A DNA stretch of 36,756 bases from Candidatus Fermentithermobacillaceae bacterium. Its GTDB lineage: Bacteria; Bacillota; Sulfobacillia; Fermentithermobacillales; Fermentithermobacillaceae. The translations under genes and the position numbers were made by a program. This document shows positions 2,943 through 17,852 of the stretch, piece by piece (within the stretch, counting starts at the first letter, position 1; each line of letters opens with the position of its first letter). Location: NCBI GenBank assembly GCA_012842685.1, contig DUSI01000008.1, positions 1 through 36,756 on the forward strand, written 5' to 3'. The notes under the pieces are model-generated. The model was not told the DNA's origin and did no database searches. It was given only the letters and a program-made list of their open reading frames with translations.

Positions 2943-4154
2943 CTAGAAAACCACGATCACCCTGCCCGAAGCGGTGTGCGCCTTGATGGAACCCCTGACT
3001 TCGGCAGCGTCGTAATTCCTGCTCCTCGCCTTATAACGCCTGGCTCCACCCGAGTGACGCACTTCGTTTATCAGGACTTCGGCGTCTTCAAGCCCGGCCA
3101 CGTCGACCTTCCCCGAGACAGAGGAAGCTTCAACCTCATAGGCAGCGCCGGGGATCTTGCGGACGTTTAGCTCGATCCTCCCGTTTGCGCTAGAGAGGTT
3201 CCAGTTCCCTGCCCCTTCCACGTCGGCGACTACCCGGCCGTTGGCAGTCCTGAGGCTGAGGTCCCGGACCTTCCCGGTAAACTCGATCCTCCCGTTTGCC
3301 GAGTCGAGACTGATGTCGCTAAAATCCAGGCCTCTTGCCTCTATGCGCCCATTTGCGGTGGAGGCCTTAAGGGAAGAACCCTTCACCCCTTCAAAGGTAA
3401 GCCGTCCGTTGGCAGAACTGACGACTATCCTTGCACGTCTGTCTCTAGGGAGCGTCAGGGCGAAGTGGACCGATGGGCTGGAGCCGAACAAGTTGTTTCT
3501 GTGTTCTCTCCCGCGGGCCCTGAGGGTCAGTCCGTCCTGGGTGAATTCGTACAGGTCGTTCGCTTTGCTTCTAGCTTCTTCTTCTGTCGCAGCCGGCACT
3601 CTACGGGTTACGACGAGCCGGTAGCCGGGCTCATCCCACACATCCAGACTGATCCGGCCGTTCAGAGTGCCCATATCCACCGTTATCTCGCCCTCAGGTG
3701 GGAGTTCTCCTCTGATTTCCTCGGGGAAATCGTACTGGTTTCCTCCGCCGAATACCCATCCGCCGCCGAAGATCCGGGCGAAGATCTTGCCCAGATTCTC
3801 GCCGCTTTCTCCGAGCACTTTCCCGAGGTTCTCGCCTTGCTCGGCAAATCTCTGGGCGAACTCTTCGGCGCGCTTGGCTGCCGCCTCCGCCGCGGCCTGG
3901 GCCCTCTGGACGCTGGCTTCGACGGTAGTCTCTATGGTCCGGCGGATGTTTTGCTCGAGAGCCGAACCGAAATCTCCTGCCGGGGCATCCGGCTGCCTCA
4001 CGTCCGCGTAGTGCGGAGGAGGCGCGACGGGCGGCCTGGAAGACGACTCGGGCCGCGAATCTCCGAGGGCTCTCAGAAGCTCGGCCCCCTGTTCCGGCGT
4101 TATCTTCCCTTCTGCCACCATCTGCAGGATCAGCATCTTTTCCTCTTTGGACAT
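2943..4154 (-). CDS. DUF4097 beta-ladder protein with N-terminal SHOCT-like hairpin
   Basis: 403 residues. Residues 3-31 are a helical hairpin (EEKMLILQMVAEGKITPEQG) like that of the next gene. Residues 35-60 are a proline-rich linker, 64-128 an alanine/glutamate-rich helix likely to form a coiled coil, and 129-139 a glycine-rich turn. From about 155 to the end lies a repetitive beta domain of the DUF4097/adhesin-like type, with ANGR motifs whose Asn falls at about 249, 268, 287, 305 and 324, plus related NGR/SGK/SGR turns at 165, 348 and 396. This is the regular rung spacing of a beta-helix. No signal peptide or transmembrane segment is present. B. subtilis YvlB has a comparable layout and belongs to envelope-stress genes. 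ATG start with AGGGAGGAG upstream. 127 non-coding bases separate it from the DUF2089 gene, including a 12-bp palindrome at 4253-4264. Confidence 0.85.
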   Translation of the reverse strand: MSKEEKMLILQMVAEGKITPEQGAELLRALGDSRPESSSRPPVAPPPHYADVRQPDAPAGDFGSALEQNIRRTIETTVEASVQRAQAAAEAAAKRAEEFAQRFAEQGENLGKVLGESGENLGKIFARIFGGGWVFGGGNQYDFPEEIRGELPPEGEITVDMGTLNGRISLDVWDEPGYRLVVTRRVPAATEEEARSKANDLYEFTQDGLTLRARGREHRNNLFGSSPSVHFALTLPRDRRARIVVSSANGRLTFEGVKGSSLKASTANGRIEARGLDFSDISLDSANGRIEFTGKVRDLSLRTANGRVVADVEGAGNWNLSSANGRIELNVRKIPGAAYEVEASSVSGKVDVAGLEDAEVLINEVRHSGGARRYKARSRNYDAAEVRGSIKAHTASGRVIVVF

Positions 4155-4281: not shown

Positions 4282-4674
4282 TCACTTGTCGGACAGGTTC
4301 TTGAGCTGCTTTATGGCTTCTTGCGCCGTGATTTCGCCCTTGGAAAGCTTGTCGATTATGGTTTTCCTCTGGACGGCTTTTTGGGCTTCAGAAACCTCAG
4401 GCTCGGAATCCACGGGATATCCGAGCGCACGGATCAGGGCTTCGAGCCTGCTCCGGACAGTCGGGTAGGATATACCCAGCTCCTTCTCGACATCGCGGAT
4501 GTTTCCCCTGTTCTTGATGAAGATCTCTGCAAAGGCCCTCTGCTCTGGAGGGAGCTTGCAGAATTTGCAGAGGTCAAAATGACCTGATATACGGGTGCGG
4601 CAAGTCGGGCACTGGAGCTCGGTAACTTCCAGGTCACCACCGCACACGGGGCACTTACCTATGACTTCGGGCAT
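4282..4674 (-). CDS. DUF2089 zinc-ribbon/helix-turn-helix regulator
   Basis: 130 residues. The N-terminus has Cys pairs of zinc-ribbon type (CPVCGG, CPTC, then CKFC). A helix-turn-helix follows (GNIRDVEKELGISYPTVRSR, about 53-72), then an acidic linker, and the C-terminus (about 102-130) is again a short helical hairpin (IIDKLSKGEITAQEAIKQL) resembling those in the two downstream proteins. This is the DUF2089 family, regarded as transcription regulators. The ATG at 4674 is preferred over an in-frame GTG at 4683, because GGAAGGTGA sits just upstream of the ATG and covers the GTG. With the promoter at 4695-4723 the mRNA leader would be only about 14 bases. It is the first gene of the three-gene unit and may regulate its own promoter, which carries a palindrome. 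Confidence 0.85.
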   Translation of the reverse strand: MPEVIGKCPVCGGDLEVTELQCPTCRTRISGHFDLCKFCKLPPEQRAFAEIFIKNRGNIRDVEKELGISYPTVRSRLEALIRALGYPVDSEPEVSEAQKAVQRKTIIDKLSKGEITAQEAIKQLKNLSDK

Positions 4675-4691
4675 ATATCTCACCTTCCACT

Positions 4692-4902: not shown

Positions 4903-4984
4903 CTTCACCGAGTTACAGCGCTCAGCAATGGCGTGGCTTAAGCCACGGCACGCAGCAAGATCTCCCCGTTGAACACAAGCTTCC

Positions 4985-5105
4985 GTTCTGCGCTGAATCT
5001 CCCGGCACGGGAGAGCGGGGGACCCAAGTAGTTCGGGGCGAATCCGTAACGGTAGGGCTACTTCATCGGCCCGAGCCCGTCAGCTAACCTCGTAAGCGTC
5101 GATGG
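4985..5105 (+). promoter_or_regulatory. cyclic di-AMP riboswitch (ydaO/yuaA leader)
   Basis: The conserved core of the ydaO/yuaA class is present in order: CGCTGAATC, a P2-like hairpin TCTCCCG-GCA-CGGGAGA (4998-5014), GCGGGGGACCC, GGGGCGAATCC, GGTAGGGCTACTTC, then CCCGTCAGCTAACCTCGTAAGCG. A P1 helix can form between GCGCT (4990-4994) and AGCGT (5095-5099). In this class binding of c-di-AMP usually turns the downstream gene off. Known targets include potassium and osmolyte transport and cell-wall hydrolases. Here the first downstream gene is a peptide-type ABC transporter binding protein 220 bases further on. Identification rests on sequence match to the known consensus; covariance scoring was not possible. 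Confidence 0.93.
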
Positions 5106-5123
5106 GGGACACTTGCGCTCAGT

Positions 5124-5323: not shown

Positions 5324-5773
5324 ATGACCCATCCGAGGAGCCTAAAGAGGTTTTTTTACCTGGCCCTCAGCCTTTGCTTGATCTCGGCGATAGCGGTTTC
5401 GGCATGCGCCAAAGAAGAACCGCAGCCCGCGGAACCTGCGGGAAAAACCCTCTCGCTGGTCATCGACTGCGAAGCCAACCGGAAAGATGAGGCAGAAGCC
5501 ATAGCAAACCAGCTGAGACAGCTGGGTATACAGGCAGAGGTCAGGACCTGGGAATGGAGCGCTTTGAAAGAAGAATTCTTGGCCGGAAACCGGCAGCTTT
5601 ACATGACCGACTGGGGTAGCTCTTACTTCGACCCGTTTGACCTAGCGATACCGAAGCTGGTCACAGGCGAGCGAGGGAATTACTCCTTCTACTCCAACCC
5701 GGAAGTAGACGAACTCTTGAGACAGGCCACTTCGACCGTAGACGACGAGGCGCGTAAAGAGCTTTACTACTAG
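5324..5773 (+). CDS. peptide ABC transporter binding lipoprotein: leader plus C-terminal segment, ending at in-frame TAG
   Basis: 149 codons from an ATG with GGGAGG 7 bases upstream. Residues 1-28 are a lipoprotein signal (basic start, hydrophobic core, VSAC lipobox, Cys28), followed by a charged linker (AKEEPQPAEPAG). From residue 40 the sequence is not the usual mature N-terminus of a family 5 binding protein. It is the family's C-terminal part: LSLVIDCEANRKDEAEA, LGIQAEVRTWEW, the TDWGSSYFDPFD region and YSFYSNPEVDELL. The frame stops at TAG 5771-5773 within a segment that normally continues. After the TAG the same frame goes on as VQEIIYEDAPWIF, the expected next family segment. On its own this product would be an exported fragment of a binding protein and probably not functional. 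It is the first gene of the operon behind the c-di-AMP riboswitch. Confidence 0.75.
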   Translation: MTHPRSLKRFFYLALSLCLISAIAVSACAKEEPQPAEPAGKTLSLVIDCEANRKDEAEAIANQLRQLGIQAEVRTWEWSALKEEFLAGNRQLYMTDWGSSYFDPFDLAIPKLVTGERGNYSFYSNPEVDELLRQATSTVDDEARKELYY

Positions 5774-5851
5774 GTACAGGAGATCATCTACGAAGACGCC
5801 CCGTGGATTTTCGGCTACTGCCTCGAGGAGATCGCCGCGGCTTCCACCAAA

Positions 5852-6919
5852 GTGGGCGGCTGGCGCGTGTCCATGGACTCCCGGATCAACATGCACGACG
5901 TCACCCTTGAGGGCGGAGACACCATCGTCATCGGACTAGGCACCGATAGGATAGTCACTTTGGATCCAGGGAACTACCGCGACCGCGATACCGAGACCGT
6001 GATCCGGAACATATTCGACGCCCTGGTCACGCGGACATGGGATGGCAATGTGGTACCCGAGATAGCCGAGTCTTGGGAGATACCCGACCCCACCACCTAC
6101 GTGTTCAAGATAAGAGAGGGTATCAAGTTCCACAACGGCGAACCCTTGGACGCGGACGATGTCGTCTTCACGTTCGAGAGAGTTATCAATGAAAACGGGA
6201 TCGGCGGGCAGACTTCCCCGAGACAAGGGCTCCTTGGACCCCTGAGCTCCGTCACCAAGATCGACCAGTACACCGTCCAGTTCAACCTGGAAAGCCCGTT
6301 CCCAGTACTCCTCCAGGCCCTGTGCCATTTCCAGATAGTGCCCAAGGATTATGTGACCGAAGTGGGCGACCAGGTATTTGCCGAGAAACCCGTCGGAGCA
6401 GGCCCGTTCAAGTTCAAAGAGGGGCGCCTCAATGACCAGATAGTCCTGACGAGGTTTGAGGATTACTACGGGGGATCTCCCGACCTGCCTCCGGTGGGTC
6501 CCGCGAGCATGAACACGGTCGTCTTCCGGATGATGCCTGACCCGGCGACGAGGGTGGCGGCCCTCAAAGCGGGAGAAATACATATCGCCGATAAGCTGCC
6601 GCCCGACATGGCCGAGTCTCTCAAGGGCGACCCCAACATCAAGGTCGACGCGGTTCCGGGGACTAGGACATACGGCATAGAACTCTGCCTCACCAAACCA
6701 CCTTTCGACGATGTCAGGGTCCGGCAGGCGCTCAACTACGCCATAGACTGGGATGCCATCCTGGAGACCATATACCGCGGCCAGGCGGTCAGGCTGTCTA
6801 CTGCGTTCTTGCCCAGCGGTTTCGGTTACCACAGCGAGCTCAAGCCCTACGAGTACGACCCGGCAAAAGCGGTCGAGCTCCTGAGAGAAGCCGGCTTCAA
6901 TGTGTCGCTTCCAGAGTAA
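5852..6919 (+). CDS. peptide ABC transporter binding protein: rest of C-terminal end fused to the family N-terminal segment
   Basis: 355 codons in the same frame as the preceding segment. The first possible GTG is given as start, but no good ribosome site supports it. The coding signal already resumes directly after the TAG (from 5774), so this is probably the continuation of one gene. Residues 1-20 complete the family C-terminus (SMDSRINMHDVTLE). From about residue 21 (base 5912) the protein begins again as the normal mature N-terminus of a family 5 solute-binding protein: TIVIGLGTDRIVTLDPGNYR, the signature-region stretch PEIAESWEIPDPTTYVFKIR, then FHNGEPLDADDVVFTFERV, KPVGAGPFKFKE and DVRVRQALNYAIDWDA. 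It ends at YDPAKAVELLREAGFNVSLPE, where the C-terminal part would normally follow. Alone it lacks a signal peptide and would stay in the cytoplasm. Confidence 0.75.
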   Translation: MGGWRVSMDSRINMHDVTLEGGDTIVIGLGTDRIVTLDPGNYRDRDTETVIRNIFDALVTRTWDGNVVPEIAESWEIPDPTTYVFKIREGIKFHNGEPLDADDVVFTFERVINENGIGGQTSPRQGLLGPLSSVTKIDQYTVQFNLESPFPVLLQALCHFQIVPKDYVTEVGDQVFAEKPVGAGPFKFKEGRLNDQIVLTRFEDYYGGSPDLPPVGPASMNTVVFRMMPDPATRVAALKAGEIHIADKLPPDMAESLKGDPNIKVDAVPGTRTYGIELCLTKPPFDDVRVRQALNYAIDWDAILETIYRGQAVRLSTAFLPSGFGYHSELKPYEYDPAKAVELLREAGFNVSLPE

Positions 6920-6987: not shown

Positions 6988-8010
6988 GTGCGTGGAGTCA
7001 AGATCCTGGAAAGAGCTCTATCTGCGATCCCCATCATGCTGGGGGTTTGCATAGTAGTCTTCCTGTTCATGCGGCTCATCCCGGGGGATCCCGTTGACAT
7101 CATGCTGGGAGAGGCCTCCAATGTTACCCAGGAAGAGATAGAGCGCCTCAGGGCTCAGTTCAACCTGGACGACCCAATCCACGTGCAGCTCGCCACCTAT
7201 CTCGGGAGGGTCCTCAGGGGGGACCTGGGGTATTCGATCTCTAGGTCGGCCAGCGTCGGGAACCTCATACTTGAGGCCCTCCCCGCCACCGTAGAATTGG
7301 CCCTGAGTTCCATCACCGTGGCACTGATCATCGCCGTGCCTCTTGGGATCATAACCGCCGTGAAGCACAGATCCATAGTCGACCGGGGCAGCATGGCGGC
7401 GTCCTTCCTAGGGATATCCATGCCCGCATTCTGGCTCGGGATAGTGCTCATCCTGATCTTCGCCGTGGAGCTCAAGTGGCTCCCGACCGCAGGAAGGGCC
7501 GCATACGGCTTCGCCCCAAGACACGTGACCGGGCTCTACGTGCTGGACTCCATCCTGACTTGGGACCTGCCGGCCCTTAAGGACTCCGTCCGGCACCTGA
7601 TCATGCCGTCGATCGCCCTGGGAGCCGGACCCGCGGCGGTCCTAACGAGGGTGATCCGGTCTTCCATGCTCGAGGTCATGAGAAAGGACTACGTGACCTT
7701 CGCCCGCGCCAAAGGAGTAGCCGAATGGGCGGTGATCATCAAGCACGTCTTCAGGAACGCCCTGATCCCGGCGGTAACGGTGACCGGGCTGGAAATCGGG
7801 AGCCTCCTGGGAGGAAACATGGTGGTCGAAACCATTTTCGCCTGGCCCGGCATGGGCCGGCTAGTGGTAGACGGCATCTTCAGCCGGGACTACCCCCTAG
7901 TCCAGGGGGCGGTCATGGTCTACGGGTTCACTTTCGTGACCGTGAACCTCATCGCGGATATCCTCTACACGTGGCTCAATCCTAGACTTACGTTCGGAGA
8001 GAAGGTGTAA
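6988..8010 (+). CDS. peptide ABC transporter permease (OppB/DppB type)
   Basis: 340 residues from GTG with AAGGAG 11 bases upstream. It has the DppB/OppB layout: transmembrane helix 1 at about 9-30 (AIPIMLGVCIVVFLFMRLIP, ending in the family hallmark RLIPGDP), a periplasmic stretch with LDDPIHVQLATYLGRVLRGDLGYS, then five further membrane helices. The cytoplasmic EAA loop (YVTFARAKGVAEWAVIIKHVF, about 232-252) docks to the ATPase subunits. It pairs with the next gene to form the membrane channel for di- or oligopeptides, or for another substrate of this family such as nickel chelates. The 68 bases between the binding-protein stop and this gene contain no hairpin or promoter that I can see. 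The gene is therefore probably co-transcribed from the riboswitch promoter. Confidence 0.93.
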   Translation: MRGVKILERALSAIPIMLGVCIVVFLFMRLIPGDPVDIMLGEASNVTQEEIERLRAQFNLDDPIHVQLATYLGRVLRGDLGYSISRSASVGNLILEALPATVELALSSITVALIIAVPLGIITAVKHRSIVDRGSMAASFLGISMPAFWLGIVLILIFAVELKWLPTAGRAAYGFAPRHVTGLYVLDSILTWDLPALKDSVRHLIMPSIALGAGPAAVLTRVIRSSMLEVMRKDYVTFARAKGVAEWAVIIKHVFRNALIPAVTVTGLEIGSLLGGNMVVETIFAWPGMGRLVVDGIFSRDYPLVQGAVMVYGFTFVTVNLIADILYTWLNPRLTFGEKV

Positions 8011-8013
8011 GGC

Positions 8014-8925
8014 GTGATAAGGGGTCTAAGCGCCGGCGCGAGCGCACGAAGGAAACTCCTCTTACTGCGGCTTTCCCTGTGGGCCGAAAGCGCGGCGACC
8101 ACGGCAAGGCGCCTGAGTCGCAACAAAGCCGCAGTCCTTGGAGGCATTGTGGTTCTGATCATAGCCCTCGCGGCGGTCTTTGCCGACGATATAGCCCCTT
8201 ACGAGCCTGACGATATGAACCTGGCCGACAGGTTCAGCCCACCCGGCGGAAAGTACCTCTTGGGAGCAGATCACCTGGGCCGGGACGTACTCTCCCGGCT
8301 CATACACGGCGCTCGGGTCTCCATTTTGGTTGGCATTATCACGGTTACGATTTCGATCATCATCGGGGGGACTCTGGGCGTCCTGGCAGGATACTACGGA
8401 GGGACGTTCGACGCGGTCCTCTCGAGGCTCACCGAAGTACTCCTGGCCTTCCCTTACCTCATCTTCGCCATCGGAGCCATGGCGATGTTGGGTCCGGGCT
8501 TTTGGAACCTGGTATGGGCCCTCTGTTTCAAGGCATGGGTTGAGTTCTTCAGGCTGGCAAGGGCCGGAGTGCTTTCGGAAAAGACGAAGGAGTACGTGGA
8601 GGCGGCGAGAGTCCTTGGAAGATCCGACTTCGAGATCATGTGCTTCGAGATACTCCCCAACGTGGTGAACCCCCTCGTCGTAGTCGGGACCCTGAGAATG
8701 GGGACCATGATGGTGATGGAAGCCTCCCTGAGCTTCTTGGGGATCGGTATCCCACCCAGGATCCCGACGTGGGGTTCCATGATCCAGGACGGCTACCGTT
8801 TTATCCTAAACGCCTGGTGGCTGTCGGCTTTCCCAGGCATCGCCCTGGTGGCTCTCGTCCTCTCCGTGAACCTTCTGGGAGAGGGATTGCGAGAGGTGCT
8901 CGACCCCGACCTTCAGTCATTCTAG
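8014..8925 (+). CDS. peptide ABC transporter permease (OppC/DppC type)
   Basis: 303 residues from a GTG three bases after the OppB-type stop. An N-terminal basic/amphipathic segment precedes transmembrane helix 1 (about 44-62, AVLGGIVVLIIALAAVFAD), followed by the OppC hallmark region APYEPDDMNLADRFSPP and LLGADHLGRDVLSRLIHGAR. The inner-membrane permease domain then has five more helices, with the EAA loop at about 192-212 (YVEAARVLGRSDFEIMCFEIL). The C-terminus (LREVLDPDLQSF) is typical of DppC. It forms a heterodimer with the preceding permease. Spacing and order (B, C, D, F) match the standard peptide transporter operon. The substrate cannot be read from the sequence. Confidence 0.93.
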   Translation: MIRGLSAGASARRKLLLLRLSLWAESAATTARRLSRNKAAVLGGIVVLIIALAAVFADDIAPYEPDDMNLADRFSPPGGKYLLGADHLGRDVLSRLIHGARVSILVGIITVTISIIIGGTLGVLAGYYGGTFDAVLSRLTEVLLAFPYLIFAIGAMAMLGPGFWNLVWALCFKAWVEFFRLARAGVLSEKTKEYVEAARVLGRSDFEIMCFEILPNVVNPLVVVGTLRMGTMMVMEASLSFLGIGIPPRIPTWGSMIQDGYRFILNAWWLSAFPGIALVALVLSVNLLGEGLREVLDPDLQSF

Positions 8926-8948: not shown

Positions 8949-9959
8949 ATGGTGAGAGCCCACAAGGAAGAAGTCCTCTCGGTGGAGGGACTTGAGGTCG
9001 TCTACAAGACAGAAAGAGGCCCGGTTCGGGCGGTGAGGGGAGTGGACCTTTCCGTCCGCGAAGGCGAGATACTGGGGCTGGTGGGTGAATCGGGCTGCGG
9101 AAAGAGCGCGACGCTCCTTTCGATCATGGGGCTCCTTCCCCCCACGGGCAGGATTGTCGCCGGTAAGATACGCGTGGGCGGCGTGGACGTGATGGCCCTC
9201 TCTAAGAAAGAGCTCAGGTCCCTGAGAGGGAACACCGTAGCCATGGTCTTTCAAGACCCAATGTCCAGTTTGAACCCGGCCCACAAGATAGGCGCACAGA
9301 TGAGGGAAGCGCTGGAAGTCCACGGTCAGCCATACTCCAAGGACATACTGGTCCGCCTACTCCAAGAGGTAGGCATCCCATCGCCTGAAACCGTCCTGGG
9401 TTATTACCCTCACCAGCTGAGCGGCGGGATGCAGCAGCGGGTCATGATCGCTATAGCCCTCTCGTGCCGCCCCAGACTCATCCTTGCCGATGAACCCACG
9501 ACGGCGCTGGACGTGACGATTGAGGCCCAGATACTAGACCTCCTCAGGCAGATCAACCGGGAGAGGGGGACGGCCATCGTCCTTGTGACCCACAATCTGG
9601 CGGTAGCGTCCCAGTTCTGCGACCGTATCGCCGTGATGTATGCGGGGCAGATAGTGGAAGAAGGCAACGTAAACGAAGTGCTTTCAAATCCCCTCCATCC
9701 GTACACTCAGGGGCTTATAGGCTGCATACCCAGGTTCCAGAAGGGCGTGCCGCTCACGCCGATACCCGGGCAAGTGGCAGACCTGTCCGAAGACTTCGTT
9801 GGGTGCGCCTTTTACCCGAGGTGCCGGAAAAGGGACGCCTCCTGCGCTACCTCTCCCCAAGAACTCGTCCACACCGGCACCAGGCGGGTAAGGTGCCACA
9901 GGTATGGTTACGTTGAGTACACCGAGACGGTAGCGGGTCAGGATTGGGGGAACGAGTAG
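8949..9959 (+). CDS. peptide ABC transporter ATP-binding protein (OppD/DppD type)
   Basis: 336 residues with AAAGGAGG upstream of the ATG. It is a complete ABC ATPase: Walker A GESGCGKSA (about 51-59), Q-loop in VFQDPMSSLNPAHKIG, signature LSGGMQQR (about 156-163), Walker B LILADEPTTALD and the H-loop VTHNLAVA. The C-terminal oligopeptide/dipeptide extension follows, with a four-Cys set (GCAFYPRCRKRDASC and a later Cys in RVRCHRYG) that in DppD/OppD relatives can hold an iron-sulphur cluster. It provides half of the ATPase dimer with the next gene product. It ends in TAGTG, so the next gene probably starts on the GTG overlapping its stop codon. Confidence 0.94.
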   Translation: MVRAHKEEVLSVEGLEVVYKTERGPVRAVRGVDLSVREGEILGLVGESGCGKSATLLSIMGLLPPTGRIVAGKIRVGGVDVMALSKKELRSLRGNTVAMVFQDPMSSLNPAHKIGAQMREALEVHGQPYSKDILVRLLQEVGIPSPETVLGYYPHQLSGGMQQRVMIAIALSCRPRLILADEPTTALDVTIEAQILDLLRQINRERGTAIVLVTHNLAVASQFCDRIAVMYAGQIVEEGNVNEVLSNPLHPYTQGLIGCIPRFQKGVPLTPIPGQVADLSEDFVGCAFYPRCRKRDASCATSPQELVHTGTRRVRCHRYGYVEYTETVAGQDWGNE

Positions 9960-10942
9960 TGGAGGCAGCATTGTCCCTGAAAAGCAACGGGCAACCAAGG
10001 GTACCGCTGGTCCAGACGGTTGGCCTTAAGCGCTACTTCCACTCAAAGCCCGGGATACTCGCTCGGGCGCTGGCCGGAGAGAAAGAACGGACCGTGAAGG
10101 CGGTCGACGGGGTTGACCTGTTCGTGCACGAAGGCGAAACCCTGGGTCTCGTGGGAGAATCCGGGTGCGGAAAGAGCACCCTCGGAAGGGTTATAGTCGG
10201 GCTGTATCCCCCCACGGCGGGAGAGGTCTTCTACGAAGGTCGCCCGGGGACCGGCGGACAGATGATATTCCAGAACCCTTACGCATCCCTCAATCCTAGG
10301 CACACGGTAAGGCAGATACTCGGAGTAGCCTTGGAAAAAAGGGGCGTCCCGCTCGAGAACCGGGAGGAGGAATCCATAAGGCTCCTTGAGAGAGTAGGCC
10401 TTGCCGCCCACCATCTGGACCAGTACCCCCGGCAGTTCAGCGGCGGCCAGAGACAGCGCATAGGCATCGCGCGCGCCCTCGCCATGAGGCCCCGTTTCAT
10501 AGTGGCCGACGAGCCCGTTTCGGCCCTGGACGTATCGGTGCAGGCCCAGATACTCAACCTCCTGGAAGGCCTCCAGGAGGAGACGGGGGTCTCGTTCCTC
10601 CTCATATCTCACGACCTAGGTGTAGTCCACCATATGAGCCACCGGGTCGCGGTCATGTACCTGGGAAGGATCGCTGAGACGGGGCCCACCGAGAGCCTGT
10701 TTGAGAATCCGGCTCACCCGTACACCCGGGCCTTGCTTTCGGCCATCCCCAGGCTCGGGAAGACGAGGTCAGGGAGGATCCGCCTCGAGGGTTCGGTCCC
10801 GTCTGCCGTGGATCCGCCTCCGGGCTGCAGGTTCCAGACGAGGTGCCGTCACAGGAAAGATATCTGCGCCGCGGTTGACCCTCCTGCCGTAGAGCTGAGA
10901 GGTGACCCCGGCCACGTAGTGTGGTGCCACCTGCATACCTGA
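9959..10942 (+). CDS. peptide ABC transporter ATP-binding protein (OppF/DppF type)
   Basis: 327 residues if the GTG overlapping the oppD-type stop is used; GGGGGAA lies 8-10 bases upstream. A TTG at 9944 in the same frame would add five residues. Domains: VQTVGLKRYFHSKPG, a typical OppF N-terminus, then Walker A GESGCGKST, Q-loop FQNPYASLNPRHTV, signature FSGGQRQRIGIARAL, Walker B FIVADEPVSALD and H-loop ISHDLGVV. The C-terminal oligopeptide domain again has Cys residues (PPGCRFQTRCRHRKDICAA, later VVWCHLHT). It is the last gene of the transporter operon and converges on uvrC, with 76 bases between the stops. No clear T-rich terminator is present there; CCCTG/CAGGG around 10944-10963 is the only small inverted repeat. 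Confidence 0.93.
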   Translation: MEAALSLKSNGQPRVPLVQTVGLKRYFHSKPGILARALAGEKERTVKAVDGVDLFVHEGETLGLVGESGCGKSTLGRVIVGLYPPTAGEVFYEGRPGTGGQMIFQNPYASLNPRHTVRQILGVALEKRGVPLENREEESIRLLERVGLAAHHLDQYPRQFSGGQRQRIGIARALAMRPRFIVADEPVSALDVSVQAQILNLLEGLQEETGVSFLLISHDLGVVHHMSHRVAVMYLGRIAETGPTESLFENPAHPYTRALLSAIPRLGKTRSGRIRLEGSVPSAVDPPPGCRFQTRCRHRKDICAAVDPPAVELRGDPGHVVWCHLHT

Positions 10943-11018: not shown

Positions 11019-12974
11019 TCAGCGCTCCGGTTCAGTTGTCACGGAACGATGACGTTTGAGGGTTTCCAAGATCGCCGCGGCCAGCTCAAGGCCGATGCCT
11101 TTTACCGAGGACAGTTCTTCAGGAGAAGCGCTGCGGATGGAATCCACATCTCCAAACACCCTCAAGAGCTCCCTCGCCCTCTTGGGACCGACTCCCGGGA
11201 TCTTCTCCAGCACAGATTGGGTCGCTTCCTTGGAGCGGAGCCTCCTGTGATAGGAAAGGGCAAACCTGTGGGCCTCATCCCGGAGCCTCATCACCAGGAA
11301 CAACCCTCCGGAATCCCGGGGGACCTCGACGGGATCAGACATACCCGGCAGGAACAGCTCTTCGTTCCTCTTGGCGAGCCCGACGAGGGGTATATCGAGG
11401 CCCAGTTCCGTAAGGACCTCCTTGGCGGCACTTACCTGGCCCTTGCCTCCGTCGACCATTATTAGGTCCGGGAATATAGCGAACTTGCCCTGCTTTCCCG
11501 TTTCCCTCGCTTCTTCCCTTTCCGCGAGCCCTCTCTTGAACCTCCGCCACAGGGCCTCTTGCATCATGGCGAAGTCGTCGGGCTTGCCCTCGATCTTCAT
11601 CCTGAATCGCCTGTACTGGGACCTATCGGGCTTCCCATCTGTAAGGACAACCATGGAAGCCACCGCGTGTTTGCCCGTAAGGTTGGATATATCGTAGCCT
11701 TCGATGCGTCGCGGAAGCCGCTGCAAACCGAGGAAAACCTTTAGGTCTTCCATGGCTTTCATGTTGGCGGCATGCTCCCGTTCCTCTTTGGGCACCTGCT
11801 CTTCCATCATGTTCCTGGCGTTGTCCTGGGCCATGAGCACCAGTTCCCTGAACCTTCCCCGCTTGGGAGTCCGTATCCTCACGGAACGCTCCTTCGTCCC
11901 TTGGCCGCGCCGTTCATCGTTCAGGAACTCCTCGACTTCTCTTGCCGAAGGGATATCCACGGGCACCAGTATCTCGTGGGGGAAGAACTGAACCGAAGAG
12001 TAGTATTGCACGATAAACGCCTCTATGACCTGGGCGTCGCTCTCCTCGGCGGTACCTTGAAGGACGAAACCTTCCCTGCCGACGAGTTTTCCTTCTCTCA
12101 CGGTTAGCAGGGCAACAAAGGCCAAGTCCCGCGCGCGGGCGAGCCCGATGAGATCCCTGTCTTTCCAGTCAGGCACGCTTATGTGCTGCTTGCGAATCAC
12201 ATCTTCCAACGCTCTGATCTGGTCGCGGACCCTCGCGGCCTTCTCGAATTCCATCTCTTCGGCGTAAGCCCTCATGCGGCTCTCCAGCCTGGCCTTCACC
12301 TCTCCGTGGCGGCCTTCCAGGAACTTGACGACCTCGTCGATCATCGCCATGTAGGAATCCCTGTCCAGCTCACCCGTACACGGCCCCATGCACCTGCCGA
12401 TATGGTAGTCGAGGCACGGCCTCGTCGCTTGCGCCAGCACCGTATCGGAGCAAGTGCGGTAGGGGAATATGCGCCGGAGCACAGACAGGGTCTCTCGCAC
12501 AGACTGGGATCTGGCATAAGGTCCAAAATACCTGGCCCCGTCACGCTCTCTGCGCCTCACTATGGTGACCCTGGGCCAGGTCTCCTCGATCCCTACCCGG
12601 ATGTAGGGATAATGCTTATCGTCCCTGAGCCTGATGTTGTACTCGGGCCGGTATTTCTTGATGAGGTTTAGCTCCAGGAGGAACGCTTCCGCCTCTGAGC
12701 CCACGACGATGGTTTCGAGGCGGGCGACTCTCGACATCAGGGCTTCGGTCTTGGGTGAAAGATCAGAACCAAAGTACGACCTGAGCCTGTTTTTCAGGTT
12801 CTTGGCCTTGCCGACGTAGAGAACCTTGCCGTCAACCCCCCGGAAAACATACACTCCCGGCGATTCGGGGCAGTCCTTGATCTTCTCGGCAAGCTCGTAC
12901 CGGTCACCGACGAGCCCCACCCAAGCCTCAGGTCGTTGGGAAAAGGTCCTCTCCACAACCCTTTCCAACGTCAT
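11019..12974 (-). CDS. uvrC: excinuclease ABC subunit C
   Basis: 651 residues. A leader of about 30 residues precedes the GIY-YIG nuclease domain ([20 protein letters not shown], about 38-57), which makes the 3' incision in nucleotide excision repair. The UVR motif ([19 protein letters not shown], about 241-260) binds UvrB, the UvrC/RNase H-like domain ([30 protein letters not shown]) makes the 5' incision, and a C-terminal tandem helix-hairpin-helix ([27 protein letters not shown]) binds DNA. The ATG overlaps the uvrA stop by 4 bases (ATGA). GGAGG lies only 3 bases upstream, so a TTG two codons later, at ideal spacing, is an alternative. It is the third gene of a uvrB-uvrA-uvrC transcript. 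Having all three excinuclease genes together is not universal. Confidence 0.97.
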
Positions 12975-15847
12975 CTTCCTCCGGCCGTCCGAACCCCGGC
13001 GGGCTTTTCAGCCATGTCAGTTTCAGGCCACAGGTACTTGCGCAAGAACTTCCCCGTGTACGACCTCTCGTTCATCGCTATCTCCTCGGGGGTCCCGGTG
13101 GCCACGACCGTGCCGCCGTCTTCTCCGCCCTCGGGTCCGAGGTCGATGATATAGTCGGCGCACTTCACCACATCGGGGTTGTGCTCGATGACGACCACCG
13201 TGCTACCTGCGTCGACCAGGCGCTGGAGGACACTGAGGAGCTTCCGGGTGTCCTCGAAATGTAGCCCCGTCGTAGGTTCGTCCAGAATATACAGGGTCCT
13301 CTCGTTTCCCCTGCGTGACAGCTCCGTCGCCAGTTTCACCCTCTGGGCTTCTCCTCCCGAAAGGGTCGTCGCCGGCTGCCCCAATCTGATGTAACCCAGG
13401 CCCACGTCGGCGATGGTCTGGAGGCGCCTGTGGATGGACGGCACGTCTTTGAAAAACTCAAGGGCCTCCTCGACGGTCATGTTGAGTACCTCGGATATGT
13501 TCTTGCCATGGTACTTCACTTCGAGGGTCTGGCTGTTGTACCTCTTGCCTCCGCACACCTCGCAAGGGACGTAGACGTCGGGGAGGAACTGCATCTCAAT
13601 CCTGATTATGCCGTCGCCTTTGCAGGCCTCGCACCTACCACCCCTCACGTTGAAGCTGAACCGCCCGGGCTTGTACCCCCGCATCCTGGCGTCAGGGGTC
13701 ATGGCGAAGAGATTCCTTATGTCGGTAAACACGCCTGTGTAGGTCGCAGGGTTTGACCTCGGGGTACGCCCGATGGGCGACTGATCTATGTTGATCACCT
13801 TGTCCAGGTGCTCGATGCCCGTTATCTCGTCGTGCTCCCCGGGCTTGGTACGGGCGCCATGGAGGACCGCCGCAAGTTTCCGGTAGAGGATGTCGTTCAC
13901 CAGGGTGCTCTTCCCCGAGCCAGAGACTCCGGTCACGCATGTGAAAAGACCCAGGGGGATGTCCACGTCTATGTTCTTAAGGTTGTGCTCCCGGGCACCC
14001 TTGATCCTCAGGTATTTCCCCGACGGTTTCCTCCTGGGCGGCACGGAGATAGACTTCTTCCCGGAAAGGTACTGTCCCGTGATGGATTTCTCGCAGGCAA
14101 GCACTTCCCCAAGAGTACCTGCGACTACTATGGAACCCCCGTGTTCGCCGGCGCCCGGCCCTACGTCCACGATGTAATCGGCCGTGCGTATCGTATCTTC
14201 ATCGTGCTCTACGACTATGAGCGTGTTCCCCAGGTCCCGGAGGTGCAGGAGCGTCCTGAGAAGTCGCTCGTTATCCCTGGGATGCAGGCCGATGCTGGGC
14301 TCGTCCAGCACGTAGAGGACCCCCACCAGCCCCGAGCCTATCTGAGTGGCGAGCCTTATGCGCTGAGCCTCGCCGCCCGCGAGGGTCCCGGCGTGGCGCG
14401 ACAAGGTGAGGTAGCCCAAACCTACGTCCACGAGGAACTGGAGCCTGGCCTTAAGCTGCTTGAGGACCTGGTTCGCGATGAGCATCTCCCTCTCGGTGAG
14501 CTCGAGGGTATCCAGGAACCGCAAGGCTCCCTGCACCGACAAGGAGGTTACCTCGCTTATGTTCTTCCCTCCAACCGTGACCGCGAGGGCCTCGGGTTTG
14601 AGGCGGGTACCCCGACACACGGGGCACGGCCTGGTGGCCATGAACTCTTCTATCCACTCACGCACGGCGTCGCTGGGCGCGGAATTGTACCTGCGTTCCA
14701 GGTTAGGGATAACCCCTTCAAACGTTACAAAGCGGTCGCTCGTCCTGCCGTACTGGTTTTCGTAGTGGAAATGTATGCGCTCGTTGCCGCTTCCGTAGAG
14801 GATTATGTTGACCTGTTTCTCGGTCAGGCTGTCGAAAGGCGCTTCAGTCGGGATCCCGAAGTGCTTGCACACGGAATCCAGGAGCTGCATGTAGTACCCG
14901 TCGGGAGTCCCGTTCCAGGGCACGACCGCGCCGTCGCTTATGGATTTCCGCTTGTCGGGGACTATGAGGTCAGGGTCCAGCTCCATGTTCACGCCCAGCC
15001 CGTGGCACGCGGGACAGGCCCCAAACGGGTTGTTGAAAGAAAAGAGCCTGGGTTCAAGCTCTGGGAGGTTGATCCCGCAATCCGGGCACGCGAGAGCCTG
15101 GGAAAAGATCAGGTCGCCAGACCCCTGGACCTCGACGACGACCAGGTTGCCTGAAAGGCCGATGGCGGTCTCCAGCGAGTCGATGAGGCGGGACCTTATG
15201 CCTTCCCTCATCACGAGCCTGTCGATCACGACCTCAATGGTGTGCTTCTTGTTCTTGTCCAGTCGCCGCCCGACAAACTCGCCGATCTCTCCAAGCACTC
15301 CGTCTACCCGCACTCGCAGGTAGCCTGCCCGCTGGATCTGCTCGAAGACCTTCTCGTGCTCCCCTTTCCGGCCCCGCACTATCGGAGCCATTATGGAGAA
15401 CCGCGTCCCTTCCGGGAGACCCTCGATCTGGTCGGCTATCTGGTCAACGGTTTGTTTGGATATGGGCTTGCCGCACTGGGGACAGTGTGGGTGCCCAACC
15501 CTGGCAAAAAGGAGCCTCAGGTAATCGTAGATCTCGGTCACTGTGGCCACCGTCGACCTGGGGTTGCGGGCACCCGCCTTCTGATCTATCGAGATGGCAG
15601 GCGAAAGCCCCTCGATGTAATCCACGTCGGGCTTATCCATTAGGCCCAAGAACTGCCTGGCGTACGCCGAGAGAGACTCCACGTACCGCCGCTGGCCTTC
15701 CGCATATATGGTGTCGAAAGCCAGAGAGCTCTTTCCCGACCCCGAAAGGCCGGTTATCACGGTGAGTTTGTTCCTGGGTATGTCAAGATCGACGCTTTTC
15801 AGGTTGTGCTGCCTTGCGCCTCTCAGCACTATTTTGTCTCGTGTCAT
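12971..15847 (-). CDS. uvrA: excinuclease ABC subunit A
   Basis: 958 residues from the ATG at 15847. This start gives the family's normal beginning ([20 protein letters not shown]) and has GAGG at 8 bases; a TTG 16 codons upstream is open but less likely. UvrA is the damage-recognition ATPase of nucleotide excision repair. Visible features are Walker [10 protein letters not shown] (about 33-41) in the first ABC module, zinc-finger Cys pairs ([17 protein letters not shown] with CPACHG), signature [12 protein letters not shown], second Walker [10 protein letters not shown], Cys pairs CEACKGDG and CEVCGGKRY, and second signature [12 protein letters not shown] with DEPTTGLH. Its first 65 bases overlap the end of uvrB in another frame and its stop overlaps the uvrC start, so the three are tightly coupled. 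Confidence 0.97.
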
Positions 15848-17852
15848 CGGTCTGGCCTCGCGTGTCCTTTTCTGCGAGTCTACCCTCCAGCTCAAATATC
15901 ATGTCCCTAAGGAGCGCCGCCCGTTCGAACTCAAGGTCCCTGGAAGCCTGCTTCATCTCTTTTCTCAGCCGCTCGATGAGACCAGGGATGGCTCGCTTGG
16001 GGACATCCTTGAGGTCCGTGTCGGCCCAATAGTACTTCTCCTGTGACTCGACTGGCCGCTGGGACTGGATGACGTCGCGCACGGCCTTCTCTACCGTGGC
16101 GGGCGTTATGCCGTGCTTCTTATTGTACTCTTCTTGCTTCTTGCGTCTACGGTAAGTCTCGTCGATGGCCCTGCGCATAGAGCCGGTTACCATGTCCGCG
16201 TACATTATGACCTTCCCGTTCACGTTCCTCGCGGCGCGACCTATCGTCTGGATGAGGGACGTCTCAGACCTCAGGAAGCCCTCTTTGTCAGCGTCCAATA
16301 TACAGACCAGGGAGACCTCGGGGAGGTCAAGCCCCTCTCTGAGGAGGTTGATCCCGACCAGAACGTCAAACCTCCCGAGCCTTAGGTCGCGGATAATCTC
16401 CATCCGCTCCAGGGTTTCGACGTCCGAATGCATGTACCTGACTTTGATGCCGATATCCCTGAGGTAATCGGTGAGGTCTTCAGCCATCCGTTTGGTAAGG
16501 GTCGTGACGAGCACTCGCTCTTTTCTCGCGACCACCCGCCGGATCTCAGCCACGAGGTCGTCTATCTGGCCCTTCGTCGGGCGCACCTCGACTTCAGGAT
16601 CCAGGAGCCCCGTGGGCCTGACGACCTGCTCAACTACTTGCCTCGCCTTCCTCAGCTCGTACGAAGCGGGAGTCGCCGAGACATATATGGTCTGCCCTAT
16701 CCTGGCTTCAAACTCTTCGAACGTGAGAGGCCTGTTGTCCAGGGCCGAAGGGAGCCTGAACCCATATTCCACCAGGGTCGTCTTGCGGGACCGGTCTCCC
16801 TCGTACATGGCCCGGATCTGCGGGACCGTGACGTGAGACTCGTCGATTATCACCAGGAAATCTTTGGGGAAGAAGTCCAGGAGGGTATAGGGCGGCTCAC
16901 CCGGCGCCCTGCCCGTGAGGTGCCTCGAGTAGTTCTCGATGCCGGGACAGTAGCCCAGCTGGCTCAGCATCTCAAGGTCGTGCCTCGTCCTCATCTCCAG
17001 CCGGTATGCCTCCAGGATCTTCCCGGCGTCCCGGAGCTCCTTGAGCCTTTCCTCCAGCTCCTCCTCTATGGCGCTGATGGCCCTCTGTTTCTTATCTTCA
17101 CCCACGACGTAGTGGCTCGCGGGATAGATGGCCACGTGGTTCATCTCGGCGAGAGGTTTCCCCGTTAGTACGTCAAACTCAACGAGCCTCTCAATCTCGT
17201 CGCCGAAGAGCTCCACGCGAACAGCCTTGTCGGTAGCGCCTGCCGGGTATATCTCTACGACGTCGCCCCGGACCCGGAACGTGCCCCGCTGGAAGTCGAT
17301 ATCGTTCCGCGTGTACTGGATATCTACCAGGCGCCTCAGGATAGCCTGCCTGTCTTTCACCATACCCTTCCGGAGCGAGAGGACCAGATCCCGGTAGTCC
17401 TCGGGAGAACCCAGGCCGTATATGCAAGAGACGGAAGCCACCACCAGGACGTCCCTCCGCTCAAACAGAGCGCATGTGGCCGAATGGCGGAGCTTGTCGA
17501 TCTCGTCGTTGATCGTGGCGTCTTTCTCGATATAGGTATCCGTCTGGGGCACGTATGCCTCAGGCTGGTAATAGTCGTAGTAGCTCACGAAGTACTCAAC
17601 GGCGTTGTCTGGGAAGAAGCTCTTGAACTCCGACGCCAGCTGCGCCGCCAGCGTCTTGTTGTGGGATATGACCAGCGTGGGCCGGTTGAGCCTTGCGACC
17701 ACGTTGGCGATGGTAAAGGTCTTCCCCGAGCCGGTGACTCCCAGAAGGACCTGGTCCTTGTAGCCTTTAAGTACGCCTTCGACCAGAGCGTCGATCGCCT
17801 CCGGCTGGTCTCCCTTGGGGACAAACTCGGACCTAAGTTTGAAGTCAGGCAT
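15783..17852 (-). CDS. uvrB: excinuclease ABC subunit B
   Basis: 689 residues from the ATG at 17852 (GGAGGG upstream; protein begins [19 protein letters not shown]). The frame is open for 31 more codons upstream, but that part would lie across the promoter. UvrB is the helicase-like damage verifier. It shows Walker A GVTGSGKT (38-45), the beta-hairpin with [12 protein letters not shown] used to probe DNA, the DESH box, helicase motifs V/VI ([17 protein letters not shown] and QTIGRAARN), and the C-terminal UVR motif ([20 protein letters not shown]) that contacts UvrC. After that motif there is a polar basic tail of about 30 residues whose codons overlap the start of uvrA. It is the first gene of the repair unit, read from its own promoter at 17877-17906. 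Confidence 0.97.

Follow-up and report, generated by a model that had tools for sequence, protein, structure and literature searches.

Fukami-Kobayashi et al. reportedly related the type I and type II folds of solute-binding proteins (SBPs) in 1999 by a 'domain dislocation'. A natural circular permutation has been described for TpMglB-2 (Tp0684) of Treponema pallidum, a lipoprotein SBP encoded in an ABC importer operon (PMC4990184). This cluster B receptor has been demonstrated to bind glucose, which changes its shape; its relatives include proteins of Gram-positive bacteria, the name 'Cluster Bc' was proposed, and the permutation was considered a possible adaptation to lipid tethering (PMC4990184). 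In cluster C, a single uninterrupted stretch of sequence forms the second lobe, with the two hinge strands at its ends (PMC7312458, PMC8519434), as illustrated by domain III of EppA (residues 303-530; PMC7312458) and domain II of SapA (residues 313-531; PMC8519434). Natural permutation of an SBP is thus already known; for family 5 (cluster C) no report was found. The first-pass annotation of the DNA analyzed here knew of no described permuted family 5 lipoprotein, and a literature search for permuted OppA, DppA or other family 5 proteins found no description either, although one may exist in subscription papers or in structures that lack such an annotation; the single paper in which both circular permutation and SBP_bac_5 occur treats them apart from each other. 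The 60 best PDB matches by sequence to each of two permuted profiles contained no permuted chain, all being in the usual order.

In the window, that is, the whole stretch of 36,756 nucleotides analyzed, one gene encodes a family 5 SBP with its two parts exchanged (Table 1). The Pfam profile SBP_bac_5 matches the protein with 303.9 bits (E 2e-90; cut-off 32.4), and the best matches lie in family 5/cluster C only, not in cluster B (type I). The two profile segments occur in reverse order, so that the N-to-C collinearity of the family is not kept, and the same is true of the relatives. The C-block starts at the strand TLSLVID and its last residues are SRINMHDVTLE, after which the linker joins the old C terminus to the old mature N terminus; the N-block ends a few residues beyond the helix AVELLREAGF. 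The leader combines a signal peptide with a lipobox cysteine, as in bacterial lipoproteins, and its layout is also present in L007-L011. An AlphaFold2 model built from only four sequences (pLDDT 42, pTM 0.33) was discarded.

Table 1. Features of the permuted SBP gene and its importer operon in the window
Feature	Position	Strand	Remarks
c-di-AMP riboswitch aptamer (ydaO/yuaA leader)	4981-5113	+	Rfam RF00379, 95.1 bits, gathering score 38, E 2e-21
Permuted family 5 SBP gene	5324-6919	+	531 codons plus stop, one in-frame TAG
Signal peptide with lipobox VSAC (residues 25-28), Cys28 presumed lipidated	5324-5407	+	Read from translation
C-block, the C-terminal part of ordinary family 5 SBPs	5444-5911	+	Pfam SBP_bac_5 profile 296-358
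In-frame TAG, codon 150	5771-5773	+	Found in this genome only
Junction replacing the old termini, short linker E-GGD	5909-5920	+	Linker lengths across all permuted members
N-block, the usual N-terminal two thirds	5912-6916	+	Pfam SBP_bac_5 profile 1-279, E 2e-80
Permease, DppB/Opp2B type	6988-8010	+	NCBIfam Opp2B 355 bits, cut-off 350; Pfam BPD_transp_1
Permease, DppC type	8014-8925	+	Pfam BPD_transp_1 and OppC_N
ATPase, DppD type	8949-9959	+	Pfam ABC_tran and oligo_HPY
ATPase, DppF type	9944-10942	+	Pfam ABC_tran and oligo_HPY

Orthologues in the usual order are present in other families (L110-L113). Upon alignment with L110, residues 43-195 of the window protein correspond to residues 410-562 (58% identity) and residues 198-524 to residues 80-406 (60% identity). 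Residues 80-562 of L110 are covered but for three at the cut, and the mature protein is complete, extra domain included. Both segments are homologous to one normal-order parent and have changed places without any major loss or repetition, as in a circular permutation; chance is excluded as the source of this order. Indeed, the arrangement proposed in the first-pass annotation, a lipoprotein leader followed by the C-terminal and then the N-terminal block, is confirmed by the lipobox, the order of the Pfam segments and the L110 alignment. The borders given there (5441-5911 and 5912-6916) are correct to within a few bases, and the proposal of a circular permutation conserving nearly all of the protein is supported.

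The SBP gene is followed by two BPD_transp_1 permeases and two oligo_HPY ATPases, the gene complement expected of family 5, and the riboswitch aptamer lies in the operon leader, 210 bases ahead of the SBP start codon and above the Rfam gathering threshold. DppB, DppC, DppD and DppF likewise follow the normal-order orthologue L110, and genes for DppB and DppC (and DppD and DppF) follow the SBP in nearly all permuted loci, as they do in normal-order orthologues. Many permuted orthologues have the RF00379 element upstream as well, and so do the normal-order operons of L110 and L113. The same riboswitch and the same DppBCDF genes around both forms indicate one regulated importer that uses either form of the receptor. 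The substrates would be peptides or similar solutes. The c-di-AMP switch is an off-switch for genes of osmolyte and potassium uptake, which hints at a candidate role of the importer in osmotic balance.

Some loci differ in gene arrangement. Three fast-evolving permuted SBPs of family f47 (L091, L093 and L097, in G149, G148 and G147) have a DppD-type ATPase gene upstream, and DppB and DppC were not detected directly downstream of the SBP; these proteins may have changed function. In L100 and L102-L105 (families f96 and f109) the gene for the DppF-type ATPase is separated from the SBP-DppB-DppC-DppD run and is found upstream, on the opposite strand. Within the window, a DUF4097/SHOCT protein with weak similarity to LiaX (2943-4154, - strand) and a DUF2089 zinc-ribbon HTH regulator (4282-4683, - strand) form a pair divergent from the adjoining importer operon, possibly an envelope-stress module. 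Directly downstream of the operon, uvrC and uvrA are encoded on the opposite strand (11019-15895, - strand).

Used as a query against the genomes of the family, the permuted protein aligned without a break over residues 1-530 to proteins of three congeners (81%-86% identity) and of two other genera (73% and 68%); normal-order SBPs gave split matches only. None of these five relatives has an internal stop, and one of the carriers, Candidatus Fermentithermobacillus carboniphilus Bu02 (CP062796), is a single-contig genome with a complete chromosome. The window protein and the five relatives align with a mean identity of 81% per column, and the place of the junction is fully conserved. The same order in close relatives, which had been named beforehand as a check, was therefore found. 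For a wider survey, a profile of six permuted proteins was run against the class of the window lineage, Candidatus Fermentithermobacillia of the Bacillota (154 genomes), and an even draw of the phylum (398 genomes). Counting full-length permuted matches, the permuted SBP of the window's lineage (lineage I) occurs in ∼43 genomes of 14 families, several of them with complete chromosomes. Sixty loci were fetched as DNA, and an HMM was applied to their individual open reading frames to determine the block order: permuted order was found in L079-L108, L127, L128, L133, L137 and L138, normal order in L110-L126 and L129-L136, and L109, which ends at a contig end, has the N-block only. TAG, TGA or TAA codons flagged by the survey inside some relatives proved, at the level of the reading frames, to be terminal stops or to lie outside the blocks. 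The frame is open through both blocks in all 38 permuted relatives for which DNA was fetched. Beyond the close relatives, a profile scan of genome contigs returned only normal-order distant proteins (Pantoea, Alloalcanivorax, Bordetella). Genome G129 is taken to be Symbiobacterium thermophilum IAM 14863. The carrier G136, with a chromosome of 2,844,696 bases and the permuted SBP at G136:C1:900189-901751, is very probably Thermaerobacter marianensis (type strain genome, PMC3035304), in which case a cultured carrier is known. The permuted form is old and widespread, and not a one-off case.

Open frames in the relatives, the conserved operon and the normal-order orthologues together indicate a working importer with a permuted receptor rather than a mis-assembly. 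Very probably the protein would be a natural permuted receptor lipoprotein of a c-di-AMP-riboswitch-controlled ABC importer of the Dpp/Opp type for a peptide or similar solute, in a form that at least two, and probably three or more, lineages of family 5 SBPs in Bacillota acquired separately, each time at the same loop.

The gene in the window is the exception among the open frames. The frame had been described as unbroken, which is not borne out: the in-frame TAG splits it in the assembly into two open reading frames, one from 5324 to the TAG and one at 5774-6919, and the four closest relatives have sense codons at this position. TAG ends 8 of the 29 long open reading frames in the window and is therefore an ordinary stop here. 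A PylC-like domain, searched for as a sign of TAG recoding, was not found, and pyrrolysyl-tRNA synthetase (PylS) gave no match over the cut-off, the background-level match observed being present in 13 of 14 control genomes too. Pyrrolysine, or any other recoding of TAG, was rejected on these grounds. The TAG may be a recently acquired inactivating mutation, a variant of this strain or an error in the sequence. With an ordinary stop at codon 150 and no sign of recoding, the gene in this genome could quite possibly be a pseudogene or a gene dependent on TAG readthrough, with no working receptor there; we lean slightly the other way. The 531 codons contain no other lesion, and dN/dS is ∼0.04-0.10 for both blocks versus the relatives, indicating strong purifying selection, so that any inactivation would be very recent; a single-base error in the draft assembly is possible as well. 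Either way, the relatives with their open frames are left untouched.

The number of origins was addressed with phylogenetic trees in which the blocks were arranged in the same order for all proteins. The first tree, of 92 SBPs, had five changes of order, at least four of them forced by supported branches; a more careful tree of 67 SBPs had four, and 0% of its bootstrap trees had only one. Lineage I is sister to the normal-order L110-L113. Lineage II (L092, L094-L096, L098 and L128; six genomes of four families) groups with the normal-order L139-L147 at 100/100, L098 being 62%-66% identical to these in the N-block and 50%-58% in the C-block, and its permeases group with those of its normal-order relatives. 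On the E. coli DppA precursor, residues 199-529 of lineage II align with 19-368 and residues 37-202 with 370-534 (E 2e-118), which identifies it by homology as a permuted DppA. L127 stands apart from lineage II (grouping them, p 7e-13); it is on a long branch, which makes a separate origin less certain. A fourth case may be L088, at a marginal p of 0.029. On the tree evidence, two separate origins are firm, three are likely and four are possible.

A single ancient permutation would account for a cut point that all lineages share to within a few residues. It would require either that the normal-order relatives arose by back-permutation, and thus that the same double event was reversed several times, or that the tree was misled by long branches; L127 and L128 are such branches, and the placement of L088 and the edge of lineage II are weakly supported. 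However, holding all permuted forms as one clade costs 548 log-likelihood units (p-AU 1.6e-11), and this clade was also rejected by each block on its own (N-block, p 1.3e-5; C-block, p 1.9e-40) and by the neighboring permeases (p 4.8e-69), all of these p values assuming the models. As lineage II is ∼50%-66% identical to its normal-order relatives in both halves, with permeases that group likewise, a single origin is improbable. Still less credible is the joining of halves from two different SBP genes by domain shuffling; for TpMglB-2, a poor match between the halves has been considered (PMC4990184). Both halves of the window protein have the same closest normal-order relatives at the similar identities given above for L110, and the trees of the N-block and the C-block agree, so the halves were not borrowed from different genes. 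That two ordinary SBP genes were wrongly joined, by an assembly artefact or by the collapse of tandem copies against which the first-pass annotation had cautioned, can be dismissed: the draft genome consists of 66 contigs, of which the window is one, and the gene carries a TAG such as poor sequence might show, but the same order at 68%-86% identity in five further genomes from congeners and other genera of the family, one of them a single contig, and in many other Bacillota including complete chromosomes, always with the same junction, excludes it.

Independent permutation of one gene is thus the preferred reading, and the position of the cut is shared. In every permuted member 0-6 residues separate the helix motif LLxEAGY from the new C terminus that comes after it; the new N terminus lies just before the strand that follows this helix. 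Through lineage II, the cut can be placed on the E. coli DppA precursor, between residues 368 and 370. Given the contiguous second lobe of cluster C, it would fall inside the C-lobe, away from both hinge strands, which would stay intact, and no extra lobe crossing would be required. A cut near an inter-lobe crossing, as initially suggested, is therefore probably not what occurred.

The permutation may have started from an ancestor with the N-block before the C-block. Tandem duplication would have been followed by loss of the N-block of the first copy, the C-block of the second and the internal leader; the old termini would have been joined by a linker of 3-4 residues, and new termini opened in the C-lobe, in a surface loop that leads from the helix LLREAGY to the strand LSVVID. 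Tandem duplication, the usual first step of permutation, does occur in family 5 SBPs: L129 (G453:C1:2385192-2398145) has five normal-order SBP genes in tandem on one Bacillota chromosome. The permuted protein would retain its fold, both hinge strands, the ligand site and its contact with DppB and DppC, and with them presumably a Venus-flytrap function, and the lipid anchor would leave from the C-lobe instead of the N-lobe. The leaders of L099-L103, L105, L107 and L108 have no lipobox cysteine, and these permuted members are probably soluble exported proteins rather than lipoproteins. Moving the lipid anchor cannot therefore be the whole reason for keeping the permuted form, and tethering does not seem to be needed for it.

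As a rule, a natural circular permutation is deduced from one old event between proteins that are only distantly related. In the present case, the orthologues of the two orders are ∼60% identical, share a riboswitch-controlled operon and reflect several events at the same loop, which makes the recurrence of the cut site and the effects of permutation on a binding protein (its fold, ligand, docking and tether) directly testable. The cut loop is also a site tested by nature for the construction of biosensors from proteins of the DppA/OppA type. Annotation pipelines label permuted SBPs as plain substrate-binding proteins, and the swap goes unnoticed.

In family 5/cluster C, a permissive loop of the C-lobe has probably allowed natural permutation to become fixed in Bacillota on three or more separate occasions, giving receptors that the other lobe would tether or hold and that would continue to serve their original DppBCDF importers; 'Cluster Cc', in parallel to 'Cluster Bc', would then name a repeated outcome of evolution. 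Like DppA, OppA, NikA and AppA, the window SBP exceeds the SBP_bac_5 cut-off and is encoded with DppBCDF. As expected for family 5, both halves of the permuted proteins align to E. coli DppA, and the proteins are exported, mostly with lipoprotein leaders; unlike in other family 5 SBPs, these halves are swapped. As in the 'domain dislocation', SBP strand order was rearranged long ago; the dislocation, however, is a deep change of fold, whereas permuted family 5 proteins remain ∼60% identical to normal-order relatives. The importer has the same five-part layout as E. coli DppABCDF (8z1y, 8z1z; PMC12136057), of whose DppA lineage II is a relative; E. coli DppA is not permuted and has its N terminus on the N-lobe (PMC12136057). 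With TpMglB-2, the window protein shares a natural circular permutation in a lipoprotein SBP. TpMglB-2, however, belongs to cluster B (type I) and is cut in the N-lobe, has an added fourth lobe crossing and contains a poorly matching permuted segment, whereas the family 5 form belongs to cluster C, is cut by homology in the C-lobe, is expected to have no added crossing, and has two clearly homologous halves and several origins.
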